DNA of 64,000 nucleotides from assembly GCA_030549495.1 (NCBI GenBank), contig JAUIRK010000961.1, positions 62,001 through 126,000 of the forward strand. The letters run 5' to 3'. The stretch comes from Nectonema munidae (taxonomy: Eukaryota > Nematomorpha > Nectonematoida > Nectonematidae). The translations under genes and the position numbers were made by a program. Positions within the stretch are counted from its first letter, which is position 1. Each line of letters begins with the position of its first letter. The notes under the pieces were generated by a model, which saw only the letters and a list, made by a program, of their open reading frames with translations, did not search any database and was not told the origin of the DNA. Positions 28,008-62,039 of this stretch are shown here, one piece after another.

Positions 28008-30023
28008 ATGTTGGATTTTTTCATAATTTTTTCGCGAGGTGGGATTGTTTTGTGGTGTTTTCAAGCGACAACAGCTGCAATCTACCCAGCAATCAACTCG
28101 TACATCTGCGACGCCTTGTTGCAGAACAAGGCATTCTCTAGTAGTAGTTACCATGTCAATAACTGGAGATTACATTGCAAGCTAGACAATGAGTATCGTC
28201 TGGTGTTTGTGCTTGGCTACCAAAAAAACTTGACACTTTCTTACCTAGATAAGTTTTTGGACGAAATTCAACTACAATTCAGGGATTTGTACCGGAATAA
28301 AGTTTCGGATAAGAATGCTGCTGGCATTTACTCTCAATACGACGAATTTGGAGAAGTGTTCAACAGCGTTCTTCAAGGAGTTTTCAAAAATGAACAAGAA
28401 TTGAAAAAAGTTGCCAAAGTGATGCGCTCTTATGATGAATCTGAAAAATCGAAGAAAACGATCCAAGACTTTGTGACGAATAAGCAAACGGAGGAGGTGA
28501 AAGCCCAACGCGAGAAAAAGCTCCTCTCAAAAAAGAAGAATACCCCGTCCACAAGTAAGACGAAAGAGGATGACGAAAAAGTTGTTGCTAAGATGAATGG
28601 CTTTCATCCAATAATAGAAGTAGAGGGTGCTTCTAACAAAGCTAAGCCAACAACTTCCATGAAGCCTTTTTCAGGAAAAAAAGGAAGATTTGGTAGAAGT
28701 GAAAACTGTAAAGTCTCCTCTCTGAATTCCTCCAAGCCTAAGACTAAAACCGCTAGAACATGGGACTTGGTTGAAGGAAGCTGTAATTTCGATGAAAAGC
28801 TCGACTACAGTTCAAACCCACATCTTCCCGCGTCTAAAGTGATTGAAAATGGTGTCCAGGTCTCCTCTGAGATGCAACTCAAATTTGGGGGACAAGAAGT
28901 GGTTGGCAAGATGCACGGAAATTTACAAGACTTTGAATCTGTTTCAGAAAGTGAGTCGGAGGACTCGTCTGAAGACGACGTTTTGTCTAGTGGGAAAAGC
29001 GAAGTCGTGAACAAGATAACAACGAGCAAAAAGAAATCTTCGTCGCATATTTTCTCGTACATTTCATCGCTCGTTGGAAATAAAGCGTTGGAGGAGAAGG
29101 ATGTACGGCCACTTTTGGATCAAATCAAGAATCACTTGATATCTAAGAATGTTGCTTCTGAAGTTTCAGAAAATCTTTGCTCCTCCATCGCTACGAACTT
29201 AGAGGGCAAAGTTTTGGGAACGTTCACGAGTTTGAAAGCCACTGTTTACAAAGCGCTCGAGGATTCCTTGACCCAGATTCTGTCACCGAACCGACGCATC
29301 GACATTCTACGAGATATCTCCGAGTCTCGAAAACATTCCAAACCGTATGTAATCACATTTTGTGGTGTAAATGGCGTTGGCAAGTCCACGAATCTGGCGA
29401 AGATTGCATTTTGGCTCATTGAAAATGGATATCGCGTCCTGATCGCAGCTTGTGACACATTTCGTTCTGGCGCGGTTGAGCAGTTGCGAACTCACACTCG
29501 CCACTTGAATTCCCTGCACCCTCCTGTGAAGTCCGCATCCGGCCAAACCCAATTTTGGGTCCAGCTCTACGAAAAGGGTTACGGCAAGAACGCGGCAGCC
29601 ATTGCTAAGGAAGCGATCGCATACGCCAGTGAAAATTGCGTGGATGTTTGCTTGGTCGATACCGCAGGTCGGATGCAGGATAATGAACCGCTGATGCGAT
29701 CTTTAACGAAGTTGATTGCTTTGAATGAGCCTGACCTTGTGCTTTTTGTAGGCGAAGCCTTGGTCGGGAACGAAGCCACCGATCAGCTTATCAAATTCAA
29801 TCAAGCTCTCGCAAACTTCTCAGAATCGCCCTCAACGAAGACGCGCTTGATTGATGGCATCGTACTCTCCAAGTTTGATACGATCGATGACAAAGTTGGT
29901 GCTGCGATTTCCATGTCCTACGTCACTGGTCAACCCATCCTATTTGTAGGAACTGGTCAAACGTACACTGACATTAAAAAGCTGAATGTCAAATCCGTTG
30001 TGTCGCTTCTAATGAAGGCTTAA
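28008..30023 (+). CDS. SRPRA: Signal recognition particle receptor subunit alpha (SR-alpha), intronless
   Basis: A 671-residue GTPase that docks SRP-ribosome complexes at the ER membrane with SR-beta. The start MLDFFIIFSRGGIVLWCFQ is the family's conserved N terminus, so the start is secure. Residues 1 to about 130 are the SRX domain that binds SR-beta. About 130-345 is a charged Lys/Ser/Glu linker with acidic Ser runs. The N and G domains fill the remainder: G1/P-loop GVNGVGKST 453-461, G2 DTFRSGA 483-489, G3 DTAGR 551-555, G4 SKFD 621-624 (Ser where most have Thr) and GTGQTY near the end, finishing in LMKA. Relative to human there is an insertion of a few residues after LHPP (about 503-510). 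AATAAA lies at 30228-30233. The ORF is intact, uninterrupted and richer in G+C than its flanks. Confidence 0.96.
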   Translation: MLDFFIIFSRGGIVLWCFQATTAAIYPAINSYICDALLQNKAFSSSSYHVNNWRLHCKLDNEYRLVFVLGYQKNLTLSYLDKFLDEIQLQFRDLYRNKVSDKNAAGIYSQYDEFGEVFNSVLQGVFKNEQELKKVAKVMRSYDESEKSKKTIQDFVTNKQTEEVKAQREKKLLSKKKNTPSTSKTKEDDEKVVAKMNGFHPIIEVEGASNKAKPTTSMKPFSGKKGRFGRSENCKVSSLNSSKPKTKTARTWDLVEGSCNFDEKLDYSSNPHLPASKVIENGVQVSSEMQLKFGGQEVVGKMHGNLQDFESVSESESEDSSEDDVLSSGKSEVVNKITTSKKKSSSHIFSYISSLVGNKALEEKDVRPLLDQIKNHLISKNVASEVSENLCSSIATNLEGKVLGTFTSLKATVYKALEDSLTQILSPNRRIDILRDISESRKHSKPYVITFCGVNGVGKSTNLAKIAFWLIENGYRVLIAACDTFRSGAVEQLRTHTRHLNSLHPPVKSASGQTQFWVQLYEKGYGKNAAAIAKEAIAYASENCVDVCLVDTAGRMQDNEPLMRSLTKLIALNEPDLVLFVGEALVGNEATDQLIKFNQALANFSESPSTKTRLIDGIVLSKFDTIDDKVGAAISMSYVTGQPILFVGTGQTYTDIKKLNVKSVVSLLMKA

Positions 30024-39659: not shown

Positions 39660-42214
39660 CACTGTAAAAAATCTGTTTAAATTATAAACGCATTTTTAAA
39701 CACAAAAAGTGTCCGTTTTTACAAACACTTTTTATCTAAACGCGTTCAAATTTTATGCGTTCAGAAAAAAATGTTTAAATTTTACGTGTTCCAAAATATT
39801 CCGTTTTGATAAAAAGTGTTCTAAAATGTTGTGATGAGGTTCTAAGCACATATCAATTAAGTATTTTGTGTTTTAATTGAATATTTTGACCTTCATTTCT
39901 TAGAAATTTTACAAAAGTTATGGGATCTTTTTGGTAGTTTGGCTGCTTTGCTATACAACTCTTCATTTTTCATATAGGATTGTATCGCCGTTGCCTATAA
40001 AAAATTTTGTTCATTCATAACAAGTTTTGAATAACATAAAAAAGGATCATGAAATATTAAGTTTGTGAATAATTTTATAATCCATTCCATCGAACTAATC
40101 TTGAGTGCTATTAAGCAGTTCAGCCATACTAACAAAAAATTGAAATCATTAAAATTAGCCAAAAAACACGAGATATTTATAAAAAAAAATTCATAATAAG
40201 AAGTTTTATTATTTATATTATTTAATGAAAGATGATAAGCCGTTTCCTCAACAAATTTATCGAATTCTTTGTAAATTTCTCCTTTATCTAGTAGGTTCTG
40301 TATCGTTTTACTGTAACTTGGAATTTAAAACAAAAGCAAAACATTTACTATCTATAACTAATATAAGCCTGTTTTTCTAGGTCCACTTAAAGATCATTGG
40401 TACCTTTAATCTATGTCATGTTAATGATCATTGGTACCACCGTGATTCTAGGTCCTGTTAAAGATGATTGGTACTGTGATTCTAGTTCCTAATAAAGATG
40501 ATTGGTACTGTGATTCTAGTTCCTAATAAAGATCATTGGTACCCCCTTAACTTGGTCCTGTTAAAGATCATTGGTACTGTGATTCTAGGTCCTGTGAAAG
40601 ATAATTGGTACCCCCATGATTCTAGGTGTTCTCAAAGATCATCGGTACCGTGATTATAGATCCACTTAAGGAACCTATAAGGATCATTAGAACCCGTAAA
40701 GATCATTAGTACCCATATAGATCATTTGTACCCATGTAAACATCATTAGTACCTCTAATAGTCGTTTATATCCCCGAATATCATCCTTAGTACACGTAAA
40801 GATCATTAATAGCCGACAATTTAGTAGATAAATTTTAGTAGAATTAGCAATTAGATTATCATTAAAAATAAATTAAAGCAGACAATATAAATAAATTATA
40901 TGTAATCTATATAAAATTTAAAAAACCTTATCAAAAGTAGAAAGATCTATCTATTTAAATAAAAAAAAATAGATTTAAATCTATTGAAATCTCTTAATAC
41001 TTAAAAATTAAAAGTAATAGAGTTTAGAAAAAAAAATTTATAAACTAAATAATTTAGATTATAGAAATCTATTACTGAAAAATAAAATTTATAAAAATAA
41101 TTTAGATTTTAAAGAAATCTTAATAAAACTTTAGTTATTTAAAAATGATCAATAGTAGGTATCAATTTTTAGAAATCTAATACAAAATTTATAAATTAAA
41201 AAAACAACTTTAATAAAGAATCTTGTTTTATTAAAAATAGAGATTTGAAACAGTAACATACAAATTTATTATCTTTCCCTAGAAGAATAAATAAACCCAT
41301 CAGCCATTAATTTAATTGGATATATTGAGAATGTAAAATTTTTTTATTGCAAATGAATTTTTTTGATTGGCTAAAATAAGTACATCATATACTATATATG
41401 AAAATTTTTTGAATAAAAAGATTTAATGTAAAATAAAGTTAATATTGTTATTCAGAATGATAAGAGGATTCTAAAAATATATAAAACTTGATTTTTTTTG
41501 AATTATATGTGAAGTCATAATTTTGAGGCCGTTTGAAAAGGCCTGAAAAATCGGAAATTTAAAAAATGGAAAATTCAAAAATTTTAAAACGTATTCTGAT
41601 AGAGTTTGATACGCTGATTCCAAATATGTAATTTGTTTGAAATAAATCGAATGATTTTTTAATTTTTTTAGGTCAAATTTGGAATTTTTGTCATTTTATC
41701 AAGTTCAAGGGCTAACAATAGAATCCAAAATTTACAATTTTTTGAATGATAAAAAACACTGAACAAAAGATCTTTTTAGATTTTAGATACTTAATTGATA
41801 GTTATTTTTAATTGAGATGCTGCTGTCAACACATAAAGTGTTCATATTTTAAAAACATCACGCATACACTTTTGAGATGTACATGAGATAAGCTTTAATG
41901 CTATAAAAAATAATTCTGTATTTTAATGACATCTATCTGTCCTATATGGAAAATTTAAATAGATACTGTTTAATTTTTTTGTTTAAACTCTAAACACAAA
42001 ACGGAATAGTTGGAAATTTTATATGGTGTTTAAGATTATAAAAAATTTTTCAACATAAAAATGTCTAAATGTAATATAATATGTTTAAATGCTAAATATT
42101 TTCCTTTCAATGTGTTTTTAGGTGTAAAGTGTTTAGGTTTTAAACATTATTTAAACACAAAAATAACCAAACACCTAATACTGTGTTTAAATTCTAAACG
42201 CACTTTTTACAGTG
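39660..42214. mobile_element. 2.55-kb non-autonomous DNA transposon with CACTGTAAAAA ends
   Basis: Left end CACTGTAAAAAATCTG and right end, reverse-complemented, CACTGTAAAAAGTGCG are perfect for 11 bases. Imperfect similarity then continues for ~35 bases (GTTTA..A..TAAAC.CA). Both subterminal zones repeat GTGTTTAAA-type motifs. There is no transposase; the interior is a minisatellite (40380-40815) and extremely A+T-rich DNA. The superfamily is uncertain: CACTG ends occur in CACTA/Chapaev-like and other groups. I could not settle the target duplication (at most 2-3 bases). Confidence 0.6.
40380..40815. repeat. Minisatellite, ~35-40-bp units passing into ~19-bp units
   Basis: About nine degenerate copies of a unit containing AAAGATCATTGGTACC and GATTCTAGGTCC run from 40380 to about 40660. 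From there to 40815 only the AAAGATCATTAGTACCC half repeats, at roughly 19-20 bp, about seven times. Lies inside the CACTG-ended element. Confidence 0.85.
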
Positions 42215-43396
42215 CATATAAATTTGTTTTCAAACCAATACATCCAGACATAAGATTTGTCTTGTATTTTTTAATCAATTTACGTGTAGTTTTCCATACC
42301 ACCCAAGAGGTACTACACCTGGTACGCTTTTTTTATAGTGGTTTCGCCTGGAGCCCTATTCCACTTTGTTTTCTACTAAAATGAGAAATTACAATGCTCT
42401 GTTATTTAAAAAATAAATCGAAGCTTACGAAAAGTGTGTTTCTTCTATAAATACATGTAAACGAGAATCTTCAGAATGACATTGTTATAAATCCTTATTA
42501 CTCTAATTAACTTTGATTAACTTCTACAATTAATTTTTGCCAGAGTTTATCTATTTTTTTGCAGCAAGTGAAGTTCTTAATGTTATTTTTTTCCCAAATT
42601 ATGAGAATTTTGAATTTCTAACCCATTCAACAAGAAAATTTTGGGCAGAAATATCAAGAAAACAATAAATAGTTTATTTTTATTATCTGTACCAAAATAT
42701 TTTTTAGCCCAATGATAAATTTTTTACTCAAAATCATTTTGTTCTGCAAAGTAAAAGAAAAGAAATATCTAACAACTTTTTAAATAACTGGAAGAGTGGA
42801 TTTTTGGAACTGAATACAAGTGAGAAAAATGAAATCAATGTTATTAAAACTGTTGAAAAAATAAGTAAATATAAGTTTAACAATTGCCAAAAAGCCGAAA
42901 ATTTTTCTGTTAGCTCTCATATTTCTTATTCAACTAATGGACATAATCCTAACGATTTATAAATTAAAAAATATTATTTTCATTCTAATTCCAAAAAGCA
43001 CAATGAAGAAACAAAAATAGAAAAATATCACGACATGAAACCTAAGAAGCTTTACCATTTCTTTTTAAATACTGAATACATTGAAAATGAACCAGCTAGC
43101 AGTCAGAAATATGAATTATCGCTTAAAAAACAAAGAAGAAACTTCCTAAGATGTTTCAGATTCAATTCTTAGAATTTGACTTAAAATGTGACTAAGTTTT
43201 AAACTAGATTGGATACTATAAAGTACAGAGTTTTAACTTATTGGGTCTCACCATCACTTACAATTTATTTTGGGTTTAATTAATGCTCTTTAACACAAAC
43301 TTAGTTACAATACAGACATTCTAAAGCATACAAAAATATTTTTTCCTTACCTTTTTTATGATGAGTTCGTCTATTTTTCTCAGGTTTTCGTTTTTT
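42215..43396. other. A+T-rich DNA with one weak coding-like stretch
   Basis: About 42973-43170 on + is open for 66 codons (YFHSNSKKHNEETKIEKYHD and following, Lys-rich) but has no Met near the start and no recognised family. It may be a transposon scrap. Nothing else seen. Confidence 0.3.
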
Positions 43397-44959
43397 TTAT
43401 TCTATATCTAGTTCATATTTTTTTTCTATTGCGGCAATGTAATTGTCTATTTCTACTATGTTTATGTTTTCGTATTCATTCTGTGGTACACATTTTCCTG
43501 CTTTACTTCTAATTTTTACGTAACGTCTTTTATTTTCTACTTTTCTTGCTATTGAGTTTTCTGTTTCTTCTTGGTAATTCAAATTTTTAAAATTTATCTT
43601 TTTCACAATTTTATCTTCAGTTCGTTTTCTTTTTATAGGATTTCCTCTTTTTTGTTCTATATCGAGTCTATATTGTTTTTTTAGTGCTTCAGTGAAATTA
43701 TCAATATCTCTCATGATCATGTTTTCGTCTGGTTTCAGTTCTGCTTTACTTCTAATTTTTACATAACGTCTTTTATTTTCAACATTAATATTTCTTGATT
43801 TTGAGTTTCCTACTTCTTCTCGGTAATTCAAATTTTCAACATTGATTCTTTTCACAGTTTTATCTTCTTCAGTTTGCCTCCTTTTCTCAGGTTTTCCTTC
43901 TTTTTGTTCTATATCTTGCTCATAGATATTTTCTAGTGTGTCAACAAAAATTTTAAACCAGGGTCTATTCGTGTTTTCTTTCGGTTTAAGTTTTTCTGCT
44001 TTACTTTTAATTTTTACATAACGCGTTTTCTTTTCTTCATTTATATTTTTTGATTTTGAATTTCCTGTTTCTTCATGGTAATTCAAATTTTTAACATTAA
44101 TTCCTTTCACACTTTTATCTTCTTCATTTTGCTTCTTTTTCTCCGGTTTTCCTTCTCTTTGTTCTATATCTAGTCCATATTTTTTTTCTAGTGCTTCACT
44201 GAAATGATCAAGGGCTATGCTTATGTTTTCTTCTTGTTTCAGTTCTGCTTTACTTTTAATTTTTACATAACGCGGTTTCTTTTCTTCTATATTTCTTGAT
44301 TTTGAGTTTCCTACTTCTTCTCTGTTATTCAAATTTTCAACATTGATTCTTTTCACACTTTTATCTTCTTCATTTCGCTTCCTTTTCTCAGGTTTTCCTT
44401 CTCTTTCTTCTATATCCAGTTCATATTTTTTTTCTATTGCGTCAATGAAAATTTCTAACTCTGCTATGTTTATATTTTCTTTTTGTTTCAGTGGTGCAGA
44501 TTTTTTATTAACCTTTACTCGTCTCCCCTTTTTTTCTTCTTTGATACTTTTTGATTTTGAGTTTCCTACTCCTTCTTGGCAATTCAAATTTTCATCATTA
44601 ATCCCTTTCACACTTTTATCAAGTTTTCCTTCTTTTTCTTCTATTTCTTGTTCATATTTTTTTTCTAGTGCTTCTATGAAAATTTCTATCTCGTTCATGT
44701 TTATGCTTTCATCCTGTTCTAGTAGAGCATATTTTTCTGAAATTTTATCCAAGGTAAACCTTGTAAATTGCGTGTCTTTACTTGTGAACCCCATTGTGTA
44801 TAGTGCGCTAAATACAGACTTTATTGTATAAATATATATTGTTTGTTTTAAAATGATATGTGTAAAAATATTAGTATTTCCAAATAAAGGTGGTACGATT
44901 GGTAGTGCAAATTGCGTAAATGAAAACATTTCAAGACACACCAAGCTATGCATGTTCAA
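43397..44959 (-). CDS. Unknown Lys/Glu-rich protein built of five to six ~83-residue repeats
   Basis: A 520-codon ORF with no recognised domain. From about residue 85 it is tandemly repetitive. Each unit starts ENINIxELEIFIxALEKKYE, passes DIExxEGKPEKxKRxEEDKS, then VKxINVENLNxREEVGNSKS, and ends with RYVKIKSKAELK. Units 2-5 are 80-85 residues, unit 1 is about 10 shorter, unit 6 stops after DIE. The first 55 residues differ (hydrophobic, no clear signal peptide), so the true start could be Met56 (MGFTSKDTQF, codon 44792-44794). The composition predicts alternating helices and basic, nuclear-like tails. Five long in-frame units without a stop imply selection or very recent expansion. Function unknown; I would not call it a transposon gene. 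Confidence 0.6.
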   Translation of the reverse strand: MNMHSLVCLEMFSFTQFALPIVPPLFGNTNIFTHIILKQTIYIYTIKSVFSALYTMGFTSKDTQFTRFTLDKISEKYALLEQDESINMNEIEIFIEALEKKYEQEIEEKEGKLDKSVKGINDENLNCQEGVGNSKSKSIKEEKKGRRVKVNKKSAPLKQKENINIAELEIFIDAIEKKYELDIEEREGKPEKRKRNEEDKSVKRINVENLNNREEVGNSKSRNIEEKKPRYVKIKSKAELKQEENISIALDHFSEALEKKYGLDIEQREGKPEKKKQNEEDKSVKGINVKNLNYHEETGNSKSKNINEEKKTRYVKIKSKAEKLKPKENTNRPWFKIFVDTLENIYEQDIEQKEGKPEKRRQTEEDKTVKRINVENLNYREEVGNSKSRNINVENKRRYVKIRSKAELKPDENMIMRDIDNFTEALKKQYRLDIEQKRGNPIKRKRTEDKIVKKINFKNLNYQEETENSIARKVENKRRYVKIRSKAGKCVPQNEYENINIVEIDNYIAAIEKKYELDIE

Positions 44960-45069
44960 ACAAAAAAATTAGTAGGGCTTAAACCAATCAAATGCGTGTA
45001 TTTGGTATGATGCGTTAAAATTAAATCTATGTTGCCATAACGTGTGAATTTAGTTAGCGTAAAAGCAAA

Positions 45070-45294
45070 AAGATGCGCACAAAACACAGGTCGTTAACCT
45101 TAAATATATAACGGACGCTAAAACCAACAACGAACTCATCAGACCATATAAAATATAAAGCTAATATAAGATAAAATACTATTATTGTGCGCATATAAAG
45201 ATGCGCCCAAAACAAAGGTCGTTAACCTTAAATATATAACGGACGCTAAAACCAACAACTCTCCCACCACAACCAACTCATCAGACCATATAAA
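45070..45294. promoter_or_regulatory. Duplicated TATA-containing block upstream of the repeat-protein gene
   Basis: Two direct copies (about 45070-45152 and 45199-45294) share GGTCGTTAACC, TTAAATATATAACGGACGC and TAAAACCAACAAC, and each ends TCATCAGACCATATAAAA. Copy 2 carries a ~15-base insertion. Read on the minus strand, both offer TTATATATTTAAGG, a TATA-like box about 140 and 270 bases before the ORF start at 44959. Promoter function is inferred from position only. Confidence 0.4.
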
Positions 45295-46032
45295 AATAAA
45301 TAGTTATACGTAGCTATATATGTAATTTATTTTGTCACAGAACAAATAGAATTATAAGTAGGCAAAACAAAATTGCATAAAAAGAAAATATAACTGAAAA
45401 TGATATGGAAATAAAACGAGATTTTATACCGAATTCAATGAGGGTATTTTTTAATGCAATTAATTAAATACAAAACAAGGACTCTGTAGAGGCATATTTT
45501 GATGCGCATCATTTTATTTGAAGGAGAAAGACAGTTCGTTTATACCAACAATATCTCATAACATGTTGAATCGGTCAATTTAAATAAGTTTCGTGTTTAA
45601 CCATTTTGAGAAAGTTTTATACGTATAATCAAACAATATCCAAATGAACGAAGATGATAAAGTTGAAACATAATTTATTTATAATAAAAATTTTATCGTT
45701 TTTTATATCTAATCATTTGGTTGTCGTATCGTTTCCCTAAAATGAAAAATATTTTCACCTCAACATGAGTTTTCTGCATAAAATTTGCTATTTTATTTAA
45801 TAATTACTGGCAGTATTAAAAAAAAGTGATCTCTTTTATTAAAAACTGTCAAGGATAATAAAAATAGTTTAAAAAAAAGGAGAAAAACTTTATTCGAAAA
45901 TTTGTCTTTTTTTTGATAAACAGGATTCAAAAAAACAAAAATTTTCTTTTTTGAACTTTCTCTTTGCATAAACGATTTGAAGGCAAACTTTGTGATTATA
46001 ACTCTATTATAAATAACTAAAAAAGTTTATAT
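45295..46032. other. A+T-rich DNA, no gene recognised
   Basis: No coding or repeat signal identified. Confidence 0.35.
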
Positions 46033-46310
46033 TTAATAATATAATTTGTTTTTCATCATTTTGTTACCATTAAACGGTATAAGCTCCTTCAACACGTCAA
46101 GGCGATGCACAGGCCAACCATTACAATCAGAACATACGATTGCTGAATGTTTTTTACAGAGCGAAATACCGCATACATTACAAACAGACGAAGTTTTAGA
46201 AAGAGCATCTTTTCTTTTCTCGTGCTCGGTTCCATGAACTTCCTCAAAGCCTACCTTGCACCTACGTCTAACAGTTGACTCGGGCAAAGAAGCTATTGAT
46301 TTTTGAACAT
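46033..46310 (-). pseudogene. Cys-rich C-terminal fragment of a piggyBac-like transposase
   Basis: After a possible acceptor (ATTTAACAG, reverse strand) the minus strand reads LPESTVRRRCKVGFEEVHG and then SSVCNVCGISLCKKHS followed by IVCSDC. RRRC-x(n)-C-x2-C-x4-C-x(n)-C-x2-C matches the Cys-rich domain at the end of piggyBac transposases. The catalytic part is not recognisable next to it, although short minus-strand ORFs continue to 47011. It is separate from the piggyBac copy at 55.7-57.6 kb. Confidence 0.5.
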
Positions 46311-47449
46311 TCTCATCTGTTAAATAAATATGTAATTATTAATTTTACGCAAAATTTCGCTTTGAAGACCATTTTCGTTTCCTTTTGTTTTTTGACCCGA
46401 AAATAATTTATAAAACTTATCATTTTTCTTATAATTGTGGATCAAAGTATCTTCAATTTTCTCATTAAACTTTTTTTCCACTAGAAATTGTGACCCATGG
46501 ACCATAACTATCATAAAAATAATTTTTGTTATTTCTATACATTTTTTATCACAAAATATTCATTCTCTTTTGGTCTATCAGGAACAGTACGTAGAGAATC
46601 TTGATAATTATTTAGAATAAAAATAACATCTTCAGTACCCAAAAAAAACTTTATTTTTCAGTTTGACAAGTAACCAATTTTTTATAGGAATTTCAGGAAT
46701 ATTCTCGCAATTTCCAAGAGGGAATTAGATTGGAATTTGAAAGAGTCACTTTTGTGAAAAAAATGGATTTTCTAATAATAGTGCAATAAAATAATTTGGA
46801 TAAAAATTTTTCTCACTTTTTTATTAAATTTAGGGCGAGTCAAAAAAATTCTGATTATTTGATCAGAGTTGAAACTATTTCCTATAAGAAAGAAGCAACA
46901 ATTTAGAATATTAGCAACTTTGGTTCCTGTATTTTTGAATAGAATGACTGTATAAGACAACCAATGAGAGTTGTATCTGCCATTAGAGAATAGACTGAAA
47001 AAAATAAACAATCAAAACTAATTTTAAAGCTTTTTTATTCTATATCTACAGCAACTTTATAAAGTTCTTTTGAAAATAACTCCTTTAGATAGTATTCTGT
47101 AAAAATGTTCAGACCATTTGCAGATTTATATCTAATTTCCGATGTTAGACTTTCATCTCCATATAAAAAAATGGATAAAGAATTGTACAGACAGTTGCCA
47201 TTTAAAAAAAAGATATGGAAACCATATCAGAAGGAATGTAGAATAACAAAACTTTTTAAAATGTTAGATCACTGTATTAAAAAGCTTTAAATTTTTTAAC
47301 TAAAGGTTCATTATCTTTTTTCAATAAAATATTTTAAAAAAATCTTTATCTTTTTTTAACTCAAAAAGGCAAACAGAAAATATAAATTCAGTAGTCCTTA
47401 AATGGAAGAACTCTATAAAAGAAAAGCCTTCACAAGGAAAGTGGTAAAA

Positions 47450-47525
47450 TCTTTTAAAGTAAAATTTAACGAAACAAAATCAACTCATTCACTTCACACG
47501 AACACATTCCCCTCACCTCCCACAG
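47450..47525 (+). pseudogene. Fragment of the LINE C reverse transcriptase
   Basis: The peptide KVKFNETKSTHSLHT followed by FPSPPT aligns with LINE C at 19330-19410 (KVKFNPTKSTLIHFT, PHLPLLT). At the DNA level CACTTCACACGAACACATT and CCCCTCACCTCCCAC are shared exactly. A short 5'- and 3'-truncated scrap in the opposite orientation. Confidence 0.7.
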
Positions 47526-47637
47526 ACCCTCCAGGTGCGAATATTAAAAAAGTAGGATATTCATATAAAAGAATAAGTAAAAACTAGGAACTAATAAAAT
47601 TCAATGTATAGATAAAATTTCAAAGAAAAAAACACTT

Positions 47638-49345
47638 TTATTGCTTAATGTAAGAATTAATCATTCGAATTCTCTTTTTACCAATATCATTTCTTTGATC
47701 AATACATCTTTTAAATGATTGTGTTATTTTTTCAAGATTTATCTTTGCCACATTCAATAATCCTTGACTTATATTCATTTCAGTAAAATTTTTTAATGTT
47801 ATAGCTTTAACCAATCTAGAATTTGCTTCGTTAAAAACTTGATTTGCCTTCTCCATTTCTGTTTTCAATTCCACTTCGTTCTTTCTTACTTGCTTTTCTT
47901 TTTCATCGATGTTACGTTTAGACTCCCGGTCTTTTTCTTTTTTTTCTTTATCTTCTTGTTCTAATTGTTCTTCCAATTTCTTTTTATTCTCTAAAAGAAG
48001 CTTCTCTTTTTGTTCTGCCTGTATTCTTTCTTAGTATTTTAAATGAGCTTTTCTGATTGCAGAAATAAAGTTCTTTGTAATAAGAATGTCTATTATATTT
48101 TTGTACATACGAATAGCATCTTTCGCAAGTCTTAGCCCATTAACCGATGAAATTGACAACGAAGATCTCTCTGAAGTTAACATCTTTTTATTAACAGAAA
48201 AACCCCTTTCTACGTCGGCGTTACCATGCGAAATGCAAAGACATGCCATAACTAATTTCTTCAAGTTGGGATATTTAATATCCCCGGAAAGATTGGTACG
48301 AAGAAACACTTTATTCCAAAAATGATCAATTCTTAAAAATTCTTTATTTGAGTTGTATATCTCATTGTCATTAATTGGCTCAGCCCTGTATAACTTCCAT
48401 TCATCTGTAATTTTTGCAATAGAACAGTCTTCAATGTTAGGTAAAGCTGAACATAATTCTCTAATAAGAACTAGAGACTTGTCTGAATTTCTTACTTTAG
48501 GATGTAGACATCTTACACATCTAATAAATGTGTCATTAAGAGGCAACTTGGTTTGAAGATAAAAACTGACAGATTGATAAAACCTTTTTATGTCATTCAG
48601 TATTACGTGTTTTTTAGTTTCATCAAGTAATTCTAATGTCTTTGTAGTGTTTGTGACTATTTCCATAATAAAATAGGTTTTCAATATGAAAAATATCGAT
48701 AATTTGAAGCTTGTGTCTAGATTTGTTTTGAATTAAGTCAAGTTTGACAAATCTATTGAGAAAAGTTAGCAACAAAAAAAGTGACTCTTCATAAAGTAAT
48801 CGAATCATAAATTCTTTTTTTTTGAAATTTTGTTAGAAAAGGCTGAAACAAAACACCAACACAAATGACAAACTGAACCTCCGCAAGAACGTCTTTGTTT
48901 GAAAGAAAATCACATATTCTCTTGTATCGATTGTTCTTTTCAAGCTGAAGCAAAGTATGATCGCCTTTACTTTTTTTAGGTAAGTCTTTTAAAAAATATT
49001 TACAAAGTGAACACCAGTGTTTCATAATACGTTGTAATGAGAGTTAACCAACGACATTGTAAATGACGAATAAGAAACTCTACACCCAGACAAAATCTTC
49101 TAAAGTAAATGTGTAGTCTTCTTGTTGGCAAATATGAGTTTTAAACCATTGATAAATATCAATTGATAATTGTTCTGCGTTTTGTCCATAGAGACGAAGC
49201 ATTTTTTAAAAGAATTATGAAGAGTATGCAAGATGCAAGGAACAAAAGGAACCAAGCCGGGAAAATCAGCTCTTTGAAATATGTTTGTATATTTTTCCAT
49301 ATTGCCTTATTAATGTTTGGACCATCTCCACTCAAAGAAACACTA
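47638..49345 (-). pseudogene. hAT transposase pseudogene with C-terminal coiled coil
   Basis: Minus-strand frames from high to low. 49100-49345 reads LSGDGPNINKAIWKNI and VPFVPCILHTLHNSFKKC, a hAT core segment. 48623-49025 has broken linker frames. 48031-48684 reads YPNLKKLVMACLCISHGNAD then VERGFSVNKKMLTSERSS and SSVNGLRLAKDAIR, the hAT dimerisation region. After a single TAA (48031-48033) the same frame runs on to 47638 as a long Lys/Glu coiled coil. Three frameshifts plus the stop make it non-functional. The 5' part stops where the satellite begins at about 49345. Confidence 0.75.
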
Positions 49346-49755
49346 ACAATATTCTAACTATGCTAACAATAACGTTAACACTAACAATATTCTAACTATA
49401 CTAACACCAACTCTAAAACTAACCATATTCTAACTATACTAACACTAACAATATTCTAACTATGCTAACAATAACGTTAACACTAACAATATTCTAACTA
49501 TACTAACACTAACAATAATTCTAACTATACTAATTCGTAACGTTAAACTAACAATATTCTTAACATTTCTAACTATAATCAATATTCTAAAAATCTTAAA
49601 ATAACATTAATATAAGAATAAGCTAACCATATTCAACTGTAAAACTAACAATATTCTAACTATACTAACACTAACAATATTCTAACTATCCTAACAATAA
49701 CGTTAACACTAACAATATTCTAACTATACTAACACTAACAATAATTATAACATAG
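49342..49755. repeat. Satellite of (CTAACAATATTCTAACTATA)-type units
   Basis: Repeating AACACTAACAATATTCTAAC and TATACTAAC blocks with interspersed AATAACGTTAACAC, in irregular order of ~20-40 bp. A 35-base segment at about 49590-49625 (AATCTTAAAATAACATTAAT, AAGAATAAGC) recurs at about 49806-49840. The same motif in inverse orientation forms the centre of the palindrome at 52148-52289. Confidence 0.85.
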
Positions 49756-49889
49756 TAATTCGTTTAATTAAGCTTTCATGCGTAATTATATTTTTTTTTG
49801 AAAAAATCTTGAAATATCATTTTTATAAGAATAAGCAAAGCCATTTTATTGTATTTTTTAATAAAATTTTGTTGATTTAAATTTTTTAG

Positions 49890-50000
49890 ACGATCTTGGC
49901 AAGATCAAAGAGGGAAATGTTTCTGGAAGTCCTGGTTGTGAACTTGGATATCCTGGAATGGATGGTAGACATGGAGAACATGTACCGTCAAGAGAAAAAG
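49890..50000 (+). CDS. Candidate collagen-like exon
   Basis: A 111-base segment lies between an acceptor (ATTTTTTAG) and a donor (AAG/GTTAGT). In phase 1 it reads DLGKIKEGNVSGSPGCELGY then PGMDGRHGEHVPSREKG, with Gly-x-y spacing over GYP-GMD-GRH-GEH and GSP-GCE. Length divisible by three and symmetric phase are typical of collagen-type exons. The Gly spacing is interrupted twice, another frame is also open, and no sister exons were found. It may be an exon scrap caught in the inverted duplication; the mirror position in the right flank (about 54530-54590) is related but not collagen-like. Confidence 0.3.
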
Positions 50001-50076
50001 GTTAGTTTACTTCTTTTTTGTATGAATGAATAAGTTTTTAAAAATTAGGGAGGAAAGTTGGTTCTTTAAAAACACT

Positions 50077-52147
50077 TTTAACTGGTTTCATTTTTTAATA
50101 TTAAAATTAGCGATATACTGTCAATTGAGACGAATCCATCCATCTGTTGAATGCTCGCTCTTTGAAAAAGTTCTTACATTTTTTGAAATCTGGTGACTTT
50201 ATTTCTTATCAAAATTTGATAACTTTTATCGATTTATTTTCCGTGTCAAAAAATACTAGGAAAACTAATGAAACAGCGAAAAGTGTCAATTGACGAAATT
50301 GCACAAAGAAGGTTTATCAATAGAATAGCCAATTATATCCAAAAATTCTAAAGACACTTTAATATTCAAAACAAAATTAAGTTGCAATAAATTTAATTAA
50401 AATTATTTATTGAAAACATGGCGTCATTTTAATTTTATAAAAAAATATAAAAATTTCTTCGTGTAAATAATCAAAATATGTAAATAGTACATGTCAAAAT
50501 AATATAAATATAACAAATAAAAATAAAATTTAAAAAATTAAAGGCCAGCTGTTTTCCACACCACCATTGAGGTACAGCGTATAAGCGCATTAACTTTTTT
50601 TAAAGTGGAAGTTTCCCCAGTAGGTATATCGTAACCACTTTTCACATGTATACTGTTTTAAAATCTATTTTGCCTTTTTGCAATTCTATTTTCTCTTTTT
50701 GCAATTATATTTTCTCTTTTTGTAAGTTTTTTCACTTGTAATTGTAATAATGTCTTTTTTTGAATTGTTTCATATATAAATTGCATTGTTAAAATATTGT
50801 TACATAATTTTTTTTAGTTCCTTTTTAAAAAAAATGTACAAGTGATTGGTAAATAAATTTATTTTTTTCTTAATTTTATTATTTTGTAATTCTAATTGGG
50901 TTTTAAGCAATTCTGTTTCCTTAAACTTTTTAAAGTTTTTGGTAAAATACTTTTTTTTAGCTAAGAGAGATATTTTATTGCAAAAAAAATATAGAACGGC
51001 AAAAAAATAAAATTGGAAAAGTACAAAATAGAACTAAAAATGGTATACATATTATATATTTATTTTTTTAACCCTTTTCTGTATTCTAAGCGAATTTGCC
51101 TCTGCAACTTCTTGCTTTCATTCCTTTCTACTTGGACTCTCATATTTTCTCTCTTCTTTTCATTCTTAATCGACTCCATCTTCTCCATTTTGCGTGTGCC
51201 TTCTTTCTCAATCTTCTTGCATTTGTATCTGAAGTCTAAGAACTTCATTTCACTATTTTGAGCGCTTTCTTTTTCTAGATTTTCACATTTCATTTCTTTC
51301 ACCCTTTCTTCTTTTGTTTCGGAGTTGATTAAGAAAGTGTTCTTATTTTTGACATCTTCAACGAAATTAGTCAAATACTCAAACTTTTCCTTGTTCAATC
51401 TTCGAATTTCAATTTTTACAGGATCTTCAACCTCCTTTTTAGGCTTATTCTCTTTTTTCTCGAGTTGCCATAATCTTCTTTGTTTTTCTTTTTCTAAATT
51501 TAAAATTACATCATTTTCATGGGTTATACGTTGATCAATAATTTTTGTTTCAATGTTATTTTCAAACTCTTCATCAAGATAGACGGGATTAGCTCTTTTC
51601 TTCAAGACTTTCTTTTTGTAGAAATGAGGTTTTATGAAAGTTGGTGTGGGTTTCTCTTCAGAAAGCTTGCTCAGTCCTTCAACATCTAGACTGGAAACAA
51701 ATTTCTCATAAAAGTTTCCCCAGATTACATCCTTTTTAACCACAAGAGGTTTATATACATTTGAAGTCTTTATTTCTTTGCAAGCAGAATTTGCGTGTTT
51801 GTGAAGTTCATTGCTTTCAATTTCATGCTTTTCTTCAATGACTTTTCTTATATTTTCCCCTTTGATTTCAGGTTGGACTTCTACGCATGAGTATTCGGGC
51901 TTTGAAAAAATAGCTATGCAAGCTTTTTTTACAACTTCTTCGCACAACAAAGCGCAAGCCTCAATTATTATGTTTCCGAACGTGGCCATTATCATAGAGT
52001 GCTTTTTATAAAAGTGACAGTAACACACTTTCCATAGTTATTAAAAACTCATCGTAATAAAATTAAATACATTTCATTGGTTATATGTTTGCGATGCATG
52101 CATGTCTTTTATCGTTCGGAATATTACGCTATTTATAACACAATTAA
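50077..52147. repeat. Left arm of a ~4.3-kb palindrome
   Basis: Mirror image of 52290-54422. The arms share the 3' flank and the whole unknown ORF almost base for base; in the outer part (50300-50530 against 53960-54200) they differ by substitutions and indels. Confidence 0.92.
51060..52028 (-). CDS. Unknown charged protein, left-arm copy
   Basis: A 322-codon minus-strand ORF; the likely start shared with the other copy is MIMATFGNIIIEA (codon at about 51993-51995), giving 311 residues. Residues 1 to about 35 form a Cys-bearing amphipathic or hydrophobic stretch (ACALLCEEVVKKACIAIF). The middle is mixed with WGNFYEKF and KPHFYKKKVLKKR. From about residue 165 to the end it is an almost continuous Lys/Glu/Arg helix (EKEKQRRLWQLEKKE, EIRRLNKEKFEYL, SKKLQRQIRLEYRKGLKK) predicted as coiled coil. 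No known domain recognised. It is transcribed outward from the palindrome centre, head to head with its twin, so both copies would share a central promoter region. Confidence 0.6.
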   Translation of the reverse strand: MCYCHFYKKHSMIMATFGNIIIEACALLCEEVVKKACIAIFSKPEYSCVEVQPEIKGENIRKVIEEKHEIESNELHKHANSACKEIKTSNVYKPLVVKKDVIWGNFYEKFVSSLDVEGLSKLSEEKPTPTFIKPHFYKKKVLKKRANPVYLDEEFENNIETKIIDQRITHENDVILNLEKEKQRRLWQLEKKENKPKKEVEDPVKIEIRRLNKEKFEYLTNFVEDVKNKNTFLINSETKEERVKEMKCENLEKESAQNSEMKFLDFRYKCKKIEKEGTRKMEKMESIKNEKKRENMRVQVERNESKKLQRQIRLEYRKGLKK

Positions 52148-52289
52148 CAATATTACGATGAGTATAATATACTAACCTATACTATACTGATGAGTTAGTA
52201 TAGTTAGAATATTGCTAGTTTTAGAGTTAGTATAGCTAGAATATTATTTGTCTTAGAGTTGGTGTTAGTATAGTTTGAATATTGTTAGT
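52148..52289. repeat. Palindrome centre: inverse-orientation satellite
   Basis: Asymmetric ~140-bp spacer between the arms, made of GTTAGTATAGTTAGAATATTG-like units (reverse complement of the satellite at 49342-49755), at least three copies. It also lies between the two head-to-head ORFs. Confidence 0.75.
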
Positions 52290-54422
52290 TTAATTGTGTA
52301 TCACATTCGCAACGCGTAATATTCCGAACGATAAAAGAGATGCATGCATCGCAAACATATAACCAATGAAATGTATTTAATTTTATGACCGTTAAATTAC
52401 GATGAGTATTTTAATAACTATGGAAAGTGTGTTAGTGTCACTTTTATAAAAAGCACTCTATGATAATGGCCACGTTCGGAAACATAATAATTGAGGCTTG
52501 CGCTTTGTTGTGCGAAGAAGTTGTAAAAAAAGCTTGCATAGCTATTTTTTCAAAGCCCGAATACTCATGCGTAGAAGTCCAACCTGAAATCAAAGGGGAA
52601 AATATAAGAAAAGTCATTGAAGAAAAGCATGAAATTGAAAGCAATGAACTTCACAAACACGTAAATTCTGCTTGCAAAGAAATAAAGACTTCAAATGTAT
52701 ATAAACCTCTTGTGGTTAAAAAGGATGTAATCTGGGGAAACTTTTATGAGAAATTTGTTTCCAGTCTAGATGTTGAAGGACTGAGCAAGCTCTCTGAAGA
52801 GAAACCCACACCAACTTTCATAAAACCTCATTTCTACAAAAAGAAAGTCTTGAAGAAAAGAGCTAATCCCGTCTATCTTGATGAAGAGTTTGAAAATAAC
52901 ATTGAAACAAAAATTATTGATCAACGTATAACCCATGAAAATGATGTAATTTTAAATTTAGAAAAAGAAAAACAAAGAAGATTATGGCAACTCGAGAAAA
53001 AAGAGAATAAGCCTAAAAAGGAGGTTGAAGATCCTGTAAAAATTGAAATTCGAAGATTGAACAAGGAAAAGTTTGAGTATTTGACTAATTTCGTTGAAGA
53101 TGTCAAAAATAAGAACACTTTCTTAATCAACTCCGAAACAAAAGAAGAAAGGGTGAAAGAAATGAAATGTGAAAATCTAGAAAAAGAAAGCGCTCAAAAT
53201 AGTGAAATGAAGTTCTTAGACTTCAGATACAAATGCAAGAAGATTGAGAAAGAAGGCACACGCAAAATGGAGAAGATGGAGTCGATTAAGAATGAAAAAA
53301 AGAGAGAAAATATGAGAGTCCAAGTAGAAAGGAATGAAAGCAAGAAGTTGCAGAGGCAAATTCGCTTAGAATACAGAAAAGGGTTAAAAAAATAAATATA
53401 TAATATGTATACCATTTTTAGTTCTATTTTGTACTTTTCCAATTTTATTTTGTTTTTTTGCAATAAAATATCTCTCTTAGCTAAAAAAAAGTATTTTACC
53501 AAAAACTTTAAAAAGGTTAAGGAAACAGAATTGCTTAAAACCCAATTAGAATTACAAAATAATAAAATTAAGAAAAAAATAAATTTATTTACCAATCACT
53601 TGTACATTTTTTTTAAAAAGGAACTAAAAAAAATTATGTAACAATATTTTAACAATGCAATTTATATATGAAACAATTCAAAAAAAACATTATTACAATT
53701 ACAAGTGAAAAAACTTACAAAAAGAGAAAATATAATTGCAAAAAGAGAAAATAGAATTGCAAAAAGGCGAAATAGATTTTAAAACAGTATACATGTGAAA
53801 AGTGGTTACGATATACCTACTGGGGAAACTTCCACTTTAAAAAAAGTTAATGCGCTTATACGCTGTACCTCAATGGTGGTGTGGAAAACAGCTGGCCTTT
53901 CAATTTTTTAAATTTTATTTTTATTTGTTATATTTATATTATTTTGACATGTACTATTTAGATATTTTGATTATTTAGCACGAATTTTTGTAGAAATTGT
54001 CATTCAATTTTTTGATTGATGATAAACTTGATTACGAAAATATTCATTCAAATTTTAAATACATTTAATTTTTTATACCAAATCGAGCATTTTAATTTAA
54101 TTTTTTGCAACTTAATTTTGTTTTGAATATTAAAGTGTCTTTAGAATTTTTGGATATAATTGGCTAATCAATTGATAAACCTTCTTTACGTGCAATTTCG
54201 TCAATTGACACTTTTCGCTGTTTCATTAGTTTTCCTAGTATTTTTTGACACGGAAAATAAATCGTTAAAAGTTATCAAATTTTGATAAGAAATAAAGTCA
54301 CCAGATTTCAAAAAATGTAAGAACTTTTTCAAAGAAGCAAATCATTCAACAGATGGATGGATTCGTTTTCAATTGACAGTATATCGCTAATTTTAATATT
54401 AAAAAATGAAACCAGTTAAAAA
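52290..54422. repeat. Right arm of a ~4.3-kb palindrome
   Basis: Mirror of 50077-52147. Close to the centre it has an 11-base insertion relative to the left arm (ATGACCGTTAA near 52385) and otherwise few differences. Confidence 0.92.
52460..53395 (+). CDS. Unknown charged protein, right-arm copy
   Basis: A 311-codon ORF starting MIMATFGNIIIEA. The translation equals the left-arm copy except one residue (HVNSACKE here, HANSACKE there, from a single C/T difference). The same N-terminal Cys-bearing hydrophobic stretch and long basic/acidic C-terminal helix are present. The reading frame is intact in both copies although the surrounding arms have accumulated indels, which suggests selection or recent gene conversion. 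A further open stretch at 53405-53641 and a Lys/Arg-rich repeat (AKRENRIAKRRNRF, to about 53781) follow; whether these are coding is unclear. Confidence 0.6.
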   Translation: MIMATFGNIIIEACALLCEEVVKKACIAIFSKPEYSCVEVQPEIKGENIRKVIEEKHEIESNELHKHVNSACKEIKTSNVYKPLVVKKDVIWGNFYEKFVSSLDVEGLSKLSEEKPTPTFIKPHFYKKKVLKKRANPVYLDEEFENNIETKIIDQRITHENDVILNLEKEKQRRLWQLEKKENKPKKEVEDPVKIEIRRLNKEKFEYLTNFVEDVKNKNTFLINSETKEERVKEMKCENLEKESAQNSEMKFLDFRYKCKKIEKEGTRKMEKMESIKNEKKRENMRVQVERNESKKLQRQIRLEYRKGLKK

Positions 54423-54825
54423 TGCTTATTTTTTATCATGATAAAACATTTCTGAGATAGTTCTACCAACTTAGTCATATAAAAAAGAAGTTTCATTATT
54501 TTACGGAATAAGTCGAGAATTCCACTTCCACGAGAACATCATGCTATCGAACGGATTCAGAAAATTTCCCTCTTTGGAAATCTACAAAAGGTTAAAAAAG
54601 AATTCTAAATCAACAATAATTTTTTGAAAAATTAGGCATTTATTTGAAATCGCTCATGAGCGTGTTGCTCAATTCTAATCAAAAATGATGATTTCGAAAT
54701 TTTTAATTGCTCAAAAAAAAAAAGATTTTGCAAGGTTGTTTAGGAACTAATTAGATACGCTTTAAAAATAATGTTAGTGTCAAAATAGTAGACAAGCTGA
54801 ATTGATTATAGAGAAAAGGTGAATA
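54423..54825. other. Right flank of the palindrome, weak continuation of inverted homology
   Basis: Bases 54480-54690 resemble, inverted, 49800-50030. Shared stretches include CTTCTTTTTT.TATGA, CAAAGAGGGAAAT and TTGTTGATTTA.A at matching distances. No gene recognised. Confidence 0.5.
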
Positions 54826-55657
54826 TGGAAGATCAAAAGGTGATAGAAGTTTTAGATTTTGAAAATGAAAAAGAAGAAGAATTTTCAAGTGAGTAAAAGA
54901 GCTCGGAAAAAATGTTTGATTTAGATTTAGCAGCTACTTTGAATAAAAACTTCAGACAGAAGAGCAACAATGATGATTAGTGCAACAGTAAATATCTTGG
55001 TTTTGATGTTAAAATTTATAAATAGATCTTCAATACAGAGATCGACGACAGTACAGAAATTATTTTTTCAAAAACTCATAATTTTGACAGTTGCTCATGG
55101 TGCATTGGGATGGAAAATTTTGAAAGATTTATCTTCCATTTGTAGTTTCAGGTTACAAATCAGAAAAAATATTTCCGAAACTATTTTCTGAAAGTGAAAT
55201 CAACCCACAAGCAAATGTTATTGCAGATGTATTACAAAGTTTGAAAATGTAAAAGCTTTGTTTTATAAAACAGCTGTAAACACTGGAATTAAATCTCAAA
55301 CGTGTAAATTGATTAGGGAGAAGCTAAAAAAATCTTTTGTATTTTACATGTAGGCATCACATTTTTGAAATAATATTAACTGCTGCTTTAAATCTTCTCT
55401 TGGCCCTACAATTGGTACCGATGCTGCTTTATTCAAAATATTTCAACATCAATGGAACGCTATTCATCAATCTTCTTATCAAAGTTTGTTACAGAATGAA
55501 AGAGTTAGCTTTGCAATCAATGATGTTAAAGAAGAAGTTACTAGATTGCTATTACCCAGTTGAGTTAATGTCACGCAAGAGATGATTACAAAGAATTTTT
55601 AGAGCTTATTGTTATTTTTTTCTGGAAAAGTTCCTCCTCGTAGTGTGCACTTTTTAA
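54826..55657 (+). pseudogene. Decayed ORF of a repetitive, probably mobile-element-borne protein family
   Basis: Plus-strand frames joined by frameshifts read DLDLAATLNKNF, TMMISATVNILV with INRSSIQR, AHGALGWKILKDLSS, FYMxxRHHIFEIILTAAL, VCYRMKELALQS and finally HARDDYKEFLELIVIF then VPPRSVHFL. I remember this as a recurrent family of uncharacterised proteins in several invertebrate genomes, without a confident name. Coding similarity stops exactly at the TTAA (55654-55657) where the piggyBac element begins. Confidence 0.45.
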
Positions 55658-57582
55658 CACTAGAAAGACGGGAAATTTTTACTACCTTCAAAGACGAAAT
55701 GGTCATTTTTGACCATTTTCAATAAAATTAATTTTTTTCTATAAACTTCAGAATTTAAATGTTTATTTTTTTCAAAAACATTAAAAAGTCATTAAATTAG
55801 AAAAATATAAAAAGGTTACATGAAATATTACTCATATTTGCAGTTATGACAAACGACAATTTGTTTTTTAGCAGCGATGTGTTTTCCAAAAACAAAAGCT
55901 TTGCAAGAATTACACATATTACTTGTTTTGTTTTTACATTCTTTTGCTTTACATAAACGCCCATTTTTGTTATCTTCATTTTTGCTATCACTGGACAAGA
56001 AAAAGCTTTCCTTTGCTTTAGTGGAACAAAGCTCTTTTATCAAAGCTTTCAAAAATTTCTCCTTGAAATGTTATTATTTGTAGTCGCTTTGTAAAGTATA
56101 TACGAATTTAACCCACACAAGTTCAGTAAATTGAAAAAACATGCTAATCTTCTTGTACTTGTTTTGCATGTATTATGCCTTGCCATATGGTCCATCACGT
56201 CATTATCGTATTTATTATTGTTGTAAAAACTAATCGTATCTGGTAGTTTTTTTGTGTGTGTTTGATCAATTTATGCATTGAACTTAAAATGCAATTTTTA
56301 TTTTTTTTTACCTTTATAAATTGTTAGGCTACAGTTGTCATTTATATAAGCTTTACTAGAGTATAATGTTTTGTTTTTCATGAGATCATCACAATTAAAT
56401 ATTTCCCGACGATTTTTCCTTATAGTTCCAACAATTGTTTTTTTTCGTTTCATGAAGCTTTCTGCAGTTTCTAGACTTGTAAAAAAGTTGTCCATTGTCA
56501 CATTATATCCTTTGTAAAAATAAGGCTTCAAAAGTTTTTCACAAGCATGCAAAGCAAGTGATTTTTCTGTTCTTACCCAAACAAGGAAAAGCATTACACA
56601 AGTATTTTGAAAAGTTATCATCTAAACACCAAAATTTAAAACCAAACGTATCCGGCTTTGATGGCATGTACTGAAGAAAACCACAGCGACATTTAGATGG
56701 AAAAAGCAGCTCATCCACCAGTAAGCTGAAAGATGGAACATAACACACCTGTGAGTTTTGAATAAAACTTTCCCAAACATCTCTAATCAAACAAAACTTG
56801 TCCTTTGATTTATTTTGTCTTCTTGAACTAACATAATCAAAACGAATATTTCATTATTTTTTTGAAGCTGTCTCGATTCATTGTGTTTTTGAAAATAGCA
56901 ATTCCATATGCTTTGTTCCATAGATCAATCAAAGGTGTGTATTTTGCAGCAAAAATGCCTCTTGCATATAATAAACCGATAAATTTTTTCATATCTTCTA
57001 ACGAAACAAAAAAATTTTTATAAAGAAATTTCCCATGTATTGTCGTGTATTCTACTAAAGACTTCATCATAGATTTGCTAAAGAGTAATTGAAATGGGAA
57101 AAAGAACTTTCTTTTACAATGTTTTTTTTGAATAGGAAGTTTTCCCGGATTTGGCTGTGAAACAATTTTCTTTTGGCACTCTTCCTTTATTAGAAACAGC
57201 TAGTTGATTATACCACTTTTTTCCTGACTTTGAAATGGCGGTGTTCTCTAAATCACCTTCAGATTCTTCTAAACTTTCTGAAAAATCAAAATTATTACAG
57301 TCGTTCATCTCAAAGTCCTCTTCAAGTGTAGATAAAGAAAGGTTGGAGTCAGAATCTTCAGAATACTCCATTATTTTTTGTAAATATAATTTTTCTAATA
57401 AACACACCATTCTCTATTTCATAAAAGTTTTATTATGAATTTTTAATATTTTTTTTAAATTTAAATAATAAAGGTATCTTAGCGAACTTTTCTTTTATAT
57501 ATATAAGGTCTTGAAATTGTATATCACTTAAAAATCTTTCGTTTTTCAAAGGGGTCATTTTTGACCATTTAGTCATTATAGG
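55658..57582 (-). mobile_element. Degraded piggyBac element
   Basis: Left end TTAA followed by CACTAGAAAGACGGG, a piggyBac-type terminus. Both subterminal zones contain the palindromic GGTCATTTTTGACC (about 55701 and 57554). The right end is less certain: the sequence reads outward as CCTATAATGAC and is followed by TATA rather than TTAA. The minus strand in between encodes the broken transposase. Confidence 0.7.
55828..57410 (-). pseudogene. piggyBac transposase pseudogene
   Basis: Minus-strand pieces in order. 57114-57410 is an acidic Ser/Asp/Glu N terminus (SEDSDSNLSLSTLEEDFE). 56837-57070 has FIGLLYARGIF and PLIDLWNKAYG. 56539-56790 has VCYVPSFSLLVDELLFPSK then KPDTFGFKFW. 56298-56621 has GYNVTMDNFFTSLETAESFM (the Asp of MDNFFTS is a catalytic-triad position) and KKTIVGTIRKNRREIF. 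55828-56052 is the Cys-rich end (CKAKECKNKTSNMCNSC, CHNC). Several frameshifts. The family cuts and pastes at TTAA. Confidence 0.85.
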
Positions 57583-61800: not shown

Positions 61801-62039
61801 TTCAGCGAGAGAGTAAAGGTATCCAGTCGAAAGAACCGTATAAGTACGAATTCTTTGCAGGGCTCTTAAGAACGGCTTCATTATCATCTTTTTTCCTCTT
61901 AGATTCTGAAAAATTTTTAATGGCGACGTTTTCTAAAGTTTTGTTGTGAATTAATTTTAATTAACGCTTGTTTGCGCTTAAAGTTCTAACATTCTTTTTC
62001 CATTTATTTAAATAAACAAACAAAATTAGCAATCTTGGA
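58881..62039. other. A+T-rich intergenic DNA
   Basis: No gene recognised on either strand. Bases about 60160-60470 contain a decayed patch of the dispersed GTCGGA/GGAGTC motif; the ORF at 60102-60320 overlaps it and looks like chance coding. About 61315-61405 is unusually rich in CTAACT/CAACTAA words. Confidence 0.4.

Follow-up and report, generated by a model that had tools for sequence, protein, structure and literature searches.

The stretch of DNA analysed here (64,000 nucleotides, positions 62,001 to 126,000 of the forward strand of contig JAUIRK010000961.1 in assembly GCA_030549495.1 of the nematomorph Nectonema munidae; hereafter the window) holds a 4.3-kb palindrome, denoted as W. We interpret W, with a probability of roughly 0.78, as an inverted duplication that recombines and comprises two copies of a fast-evolving gene lying head to head round a short spacer; the gene has an uninterrupted frame and no relative found outside this genome. 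W is one of several mirrored pairs of the same gene family in this genome. Labels such as C66 and C700 denote contigs of the same genome, and C657 is the contig carrying the window.

The window palindrome and its two genes

The global alignment of the left arm (2,071 bp) with the reverse complement of the right arm (2,133 bp) gave 2,023 matches, 22 mismatches and 22 gap runs, which corresponds to an identity of 98.92% over ungapped columns. The alignment confirmed what the first-pass annotation, made from the letters alone, had described as a palindrome with ~2.1-kb arms and an asymmetric centre of 142 bp (Table 1). Using blastn, the arms were recovered as two inverted blocks, one between 52314-53984 and 52129-50458 at 97.8% and the other between 54089-54431 and 50403-50068 at 95.3%, and the two asymmetric islands that stand opposite each other between these blocks were left unjoined. 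The longest exact inverted match in 49501-55000 was 506 bp, whereas shuffling its adjacent base pairs 50 times gave no match above 24 bp. When the parts of the arms were compared separately over ungapped columns, the gene reached 99.7% identity, the upstream sequence 98.5% and the 3' flank 99.3%; the outer blocks are about 96% identical. Among the window matches listed (E <= 1e-5), the only other inverted self-matches longer than 60 bp were one of ~70 bp between 19.3 and 47.5 kb and those between the palindrome centre and the tandem repeat at 49.3-49.8 kb. The centre is composed of units related to this CTAACAATATT tandem repeat.

Each arm of W carries one intact reading frame of 311 codons, and the two frames point outwards from the centre. 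The first reading had overlooked this gene, along with the many head-to-head pairs of its family and the tandem segmental duplication around W, both described below. The left and right genes differ at three coding sites, of which two are synonymous and one changes an amino acid. The protein contains 17.0% Lys and 15.8% Glu. No relative outside this genome was found at E <= 0.01 among 1,773 candidate proteins, no Pfam family reached the cut-off (the best was PDZ_2 at E 0.10-0.12), and no solved structure matched at E <= 1. The single-sequence structure model of the protein was poor, with a mean predicted local distance difference test score (pLDDT) of 54.5 and a predicted template modelling score (pTM) of 0.24, and presented one confident helix near the C-terminus. 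We read the arm gene as a fast-evolving animal gene.

Table 1. Features in and around the palindrome W, in window coordinates
Feature	Position	Strand	Remark
Left arm	50077..52147	-	
Asymmetric centre	52148..52289	.	142 bp; CTAACAATATT-related units
Right arm	52290..54422	+	
Left gene	51060..51995	-	311 codons from ATG; uninterrupted frame
Right gene	52460..53395	+	311 codons
Upstream (promoter-side) sequence, left gene	51996..52129	-	present in other family members
Upstream (promoter-side) sequence, right gene	52314..52459	+	
3' flank, left gene	50458..51059	-	present in other family members
3' flank, right gene	53396..53984	+	AATAAA 67 bp past stop codon
Asymmetric island, left arm	50404..50457	.	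54 bp
Asymmetric island, right arm	53985..54088	.	104 bp
Outer block, left arm	50076..50403	-	precedes the gene in the family's single-gene loci
Outer block, right arm	54089..54421	+	96% to left outer block
Tandem repeat	49339..49758	.	related to palindrome centre
Connecting stretch	49853..50071	-	between outer block and promoter in several single-gene loci; here a tandem-type junction (gene end, then another copy's upstream region)
Left flank	40136..49341	+	repeated at C657:133000-142290

Mirrored pairs in the genome and their duplication as units

When the arm protein was searched against the 211.6-Mb genome, 73 matching rows were obtained, which by our grouping represent about 41 copies or fragments of the gene, spread over 18 contigs. 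Family members are of a long type, with 311 to about 360 codons, or of a short type with about 200, and broken copies occur as well. All 14 family pairs closer than 10 kb are oriented head to head, where the pairs are not independent events and the 10-kb limit was our own choice, a broken copy at C592:17.0-17.5 kb facing its neighbour from 10.5 kb away. The arms are 98.1% identical in the palindrome at C572:99k and 97.0-99.3% identical in the C700 copies a-e and C704, C700e being assembled only in part. At C572:138-146k, arms of ~5.6 kb with a spacer of ~2.3 kb are 96.5-98.9% identical by block. The arm blocks of C25 reach 93.6-95.1% and the main block of C592p 88%, and the C66 palindrome gave 95.4% over its whole length including the centre.

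The centres of these palindromes are of at least three kinds, lying in the tandem repeat (W and C66), ~120 bp upstream of one gene (C700, C704 and C572:99k) or several kb upstream (C25 and C572:138-146k), and would therefore reflect at least three separate inverted duplications. In several single-gene loci, the order of the elements, in whole or in part, is outer block, connecting stretch, promoter, gene and 3' flank. Behind the left W gene, another copy contributes its outer block and connecting stretch, in the style of a tandem array, and this junction suggests that tandem and inverted duplication both acted. A remnant at C8:357000-366900 lacks the gene but retains the outer block on one side of the gap and a portion of the 3' flank on the other.

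The left flank of W recurs further along C657 in the same orientation, with 98.5% identity over the main 8.5-kb block, at an offset of 30,951 bases that corresponds to a tandem period of about 31 kb. C657 ends 376 bp after this repeat, where a second palindrome would be expected. On C66, a palindrome of the W type starts at base 383 and is followed by the right flank of W, which is 91-97% identical near the palindrome and about 99% further out. The sequences make it more likely that C66 is the next tandem unit after W, with the counterweight that its left arm carries no outer block and that its outer 383 bp match C474. The alternative that C66 is the other allele of the W locus is disfavoured, short of proof, by the single match of the window's signal recognition particle (SRP) receptor alpha in the assembly and by the recurrence of the left flank downstream on C657. 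C700 carries an array of five palindromes, the fifth of which is cut by the contig end. Palindromes have thus been copied as units, in the ~31-kb tandem duplication on C657 and in the C700 array.

Two further observations concern C66 and C474. The right flank at window 54430-56500 differs from L009:4441-6500 (C66) by 7-10% in the 1.5 kb next to the palindrome and by <=2% beyond 2 kb, and the proximal 620 bp of C66 match C474 at 97%, as if exchanged with an inverted copy. In C474:1-10000, the right flank is reversed, and one arm matches C66 at 99.8% over 2,256 bp, after which the sequence departs inside the spacer; further on, C474 has matches in the DNA preceding single genes on C26 and C30. 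C474 is either a third copy or a misjoin.

Comparisons within the family also bear on the coding frame. In nine pairwise comparisons, gaps were multiples of three in 43 of 46 cases in coding sequence and in 12 of 55 cases outside it, a contrast that is weakened by overlap in the sequences used, the comparisons being non-independent. The three coding gaps that break the pattern are one base long and occur where the W gene is compared with C25b, C572b and C25a, one per comparison. Such frame preservation indicates that selection acts on the protein. The ratios of nonsynonymous to synonymous substitution rates (dN/dS) were 0.49-1.19 in the 11 of 22 comparisons made between subfamilies and 0.11-2.55 in the other 11, between close copies, where changes are few and one ratio is undefined.

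Signs of exchange between arms and of spacer inversion

Spacers of seven short-type palindromes are homologous (96.8-99.4%), and these palindromes thus descend from a single one. We tested six of them (all but C700e; 12 arms) for conversion. Counting alignment columns with gaps included, 35 variants were present in exactly two arms, and 28 of these were private to both arms of one palindrome (14 in C572p, 10 in C704 and 4 in C700b). When neighbouring columns were merged, 14 of 20 two-copy variants were common to both arms of one palindrome, compared with an expectation of 6 of 66 pairs (9%; binomial p = 6e-11). A one-base deletion is present in both C700b arms. For the 45 informative sites in the 12 arms, all four combinations were found in 395 of 990 site pairs, which amounts to at least 9 exchanges among the arms if sites mutate once. 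Between W and C66, the 34 substitution sites comprise four common within each palindrome, none shared by side, one crossed and 29 confined to a single arm.

The orientation of the spacer provides a second line of evidence. With the right flank common to W and C66 as the reference, the spacer runs forward in the former and in reverse in the latter, and indels between the two at alignment columns 73-96 and 1752 are crossed likewise. In the C700 array, C700b and C700c have both flanks alike in orientation and their spacers opposite, C700a agrees with C700c in spacer and left flank, and C700d has both flanks reversed relative to C700a with the spacer unreversed (C700e, C704 and C572p were left out of this test). 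Flipped spacers are the expected products of crossing-over between the arms, with the reservation that a spacer mis-oriented in the assembly could imitate a flip.

These data were weighed against a recent simple inverted duplication, in which the arms would be alike only through youth, without conversion or recombination. Several points count against exchange and suit a simple duplication: the 29 single-arm changes among the W/C66 substitution sites; the short-type arms, which are on average no more alike within palindromes (97.1-99.3%) than between them (mean 97.8%); and the arms of C592p and its counterpart C530p, which stayed different and cluster by side in the tree. Also weighing against exchange, no two-arm private variant was found in C700a, C700c or C700d, only W and C704, out of 12 inverted pairs represented in the tree by both copies, had sister arms, and the tree left the grouping of C572a/b undecided. 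Because sister arms are few, average identities similar and many changes confined to single arms, conversion is partial and not dominant. Nevertheless, we regard a simple duplication as unlikely. The merged two-arm private variants occur in palindromes whose homologous spacer implies a common origin, four sites are common within W and within C66 with none by side, spacers are inverted relative to their flanks, and the 12 arms call for the exchanges counted above. Taken together, arm-to-arm conversion appears to be real but patchy. The earlier suggestion that it contributes to the upkeep of the palindrome is supported, if unevenly: concerted change is seen in C704, C572p and C700b, weakly in W/C66, and neither in the average identity of the short type nor in C592p/C530p.

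According to the favoured reading of W as a recombining inverted duplication, inverted duplication would have occurred repeatedly, and its breakpoints would lie upstream of the gene. Thereafter, the arms may pair within one DNA molecule or with the sister chromatid, where non-crossover repair would copy variants between them (gene conversion) and crossover repair would flip the spacer, and unequal exchange or tandem duplication would multiply the unit. The benefit of the arrangement is most likely extra protein dose together with the upkeep, or reshuffling, of the copies.

Silent cassettes shuffle variable blocks in other systems, and we considered a comparable role here, in which the mirrored pairs would act as a diversity generator, exchange from arm to arm and from unit to unit shuffling short N-terminal blocks with the C-terminus held constant. 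In nine intact short-type copies, the first 50 of the 198 codons include 13 of the 15 that change an amino acid and one of the six with synonymous changes (one-sided Fisher p = 0.0055, a generous value because the cut at 50 was chosen post hoc and codons 14-19 may be one block event). The short-type arms carry the same variants in many combinations. We consider such a generator improbable.

Other origins, precedents and neighbouring features

A foldback or palindromic transposable element with the 311-codon gene as cargo could spread copies over 18 contigs and leave a remnant such as the gene-less one on C8. This origin is, however, very unlikely. The Pfam search found no transposase domain in either W arm gene, and visual inspection of the 40 bp bordering each arm on the outside showed no target-site duplication, so that the first-pass statement that neither a transposase nor a terminal duplication explains the structure was borne out over this range. 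Furthermore, the position of the centre and the length of the arms vary among the palindromes, and homology between copies continues into the flanking DNA. In single-gene loci the outer block precedes the gene, so the arms are not the fixed ends of an element. Fragmentary transposases flank W outside the arms, one of them hAT (48031-48684) and the other of piggyBac type (DDE_Tnp_1_7; 56298-56621).

An assembly artefact, for example a fold-back read or a false join, is very unlikely: contigs do end at such structures (C657 376 bp past the left-flank repeat, C700 in its fifth palindrome and C66 just before its palindrome at base 383) and C474 departs from C66 inside the spacer after its 99.8% match, but the arms of W are separated by 22 mismatches and 22 gap runs and contain islands of unequal length, and a second and different palindrome of the same type was assembled on C66. 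Moreover, W lies well inside its contig, between stretches of ~112 kb and 26 kb, and the family has further palindromes elsewhere in the assembly, of which three show two-arm private variants.

The closest precedent is provided by the inverted-repeat paralogous gene pairs of Caenorhabditis, which are the same kind of structure as W. As described by Zhao et al. 2007 (PMC1803023), these pairs are divergent, duplicate as an entity and have been proposed to undergo gene conversion; in the pair F44E5.4/F44E5.5, the arms are 2,207 bp and the spacer 126 bp. W resembles them in having divergent paralogous genes and their intergenic region within long, near-perfect arms round a short asymmetric spacer, 142 bp in W. 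Units are likewise duplicated whole, as seen in the homologous spacer shared by the C700 array, C704 and C572p and in the tandem unit of C657 with C66. The gene family described here is a different one, without known relatives, and the signs of exchange and inversion are found within one genome.

Other parallels are found in mammals and in other invertebrates. In Hallast et al. 2013 (PMC3723533), the human Y palindrome P6, with >100 kb of arm aligned, is reported to undergo frequent conversion and rare inversions. With the mammalian X/Y ampliconic palindromes, the present ones share arm-to-arm conversion, occasional inversion and multicopy genes, whereas the arms of human Y palindromes are given there as >99.9% identical and those of W are ~2 kb long and 98.9% identical. 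The springtail Folsomia candida is reported to have palindromic collinear gene blocks, as is, by a citation in the same source, the rotifer Adineta vaga (PMC5490193). As here, those blocks are inverted duplicated genes in an invertebrate genome; theirs are collinear blocks, in contrast with one gene per arm and a 142-bp centre in W. No report of nuclear palindromes in hairworms was found among the listed titles and abstracts, subscription journals lying largely outside the coverage.

Since the 14 close inverted pairs, not all of them independent, have arms of differing identity, formation, conversion, spacer inversion and decay should be traceable within one genome. Frames that are preserved while the protein changes quickly suggest that the protein has a role; reproduction would be one guess and, should the animal be parasitic, contact with a host another.

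Elsewhere in the window, the gene for SRP receptor alpha (28008-30023) is one open frame of 671 codons. Its best-scoring matches are from mixed animals at about 50% identity. In a tree of 22 proteins picked by hand from the 120 listed, it groups with the hairworm Gordionus at 99/99, with the highest identity of 54%, where both branches are long and the join may be false. The grouping tentatively suggests a hairworm, and the matches of this gene and of cox1 (below) indicate an animal. An Rfam scan of the window returned nothing at gathering scores. Outside the window, mitochondrial cox1 was located at L047 (C107) 1282-2886, with TGA read as Trp, and adjoins repeated GC-rich blocks; long repeats are said never to occur in hairworm cox1 (PMC6649704). 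The cox1 on C107 is unusually divergent, at about 47% identity to its best-scoring listed matches, which are from arthropods.

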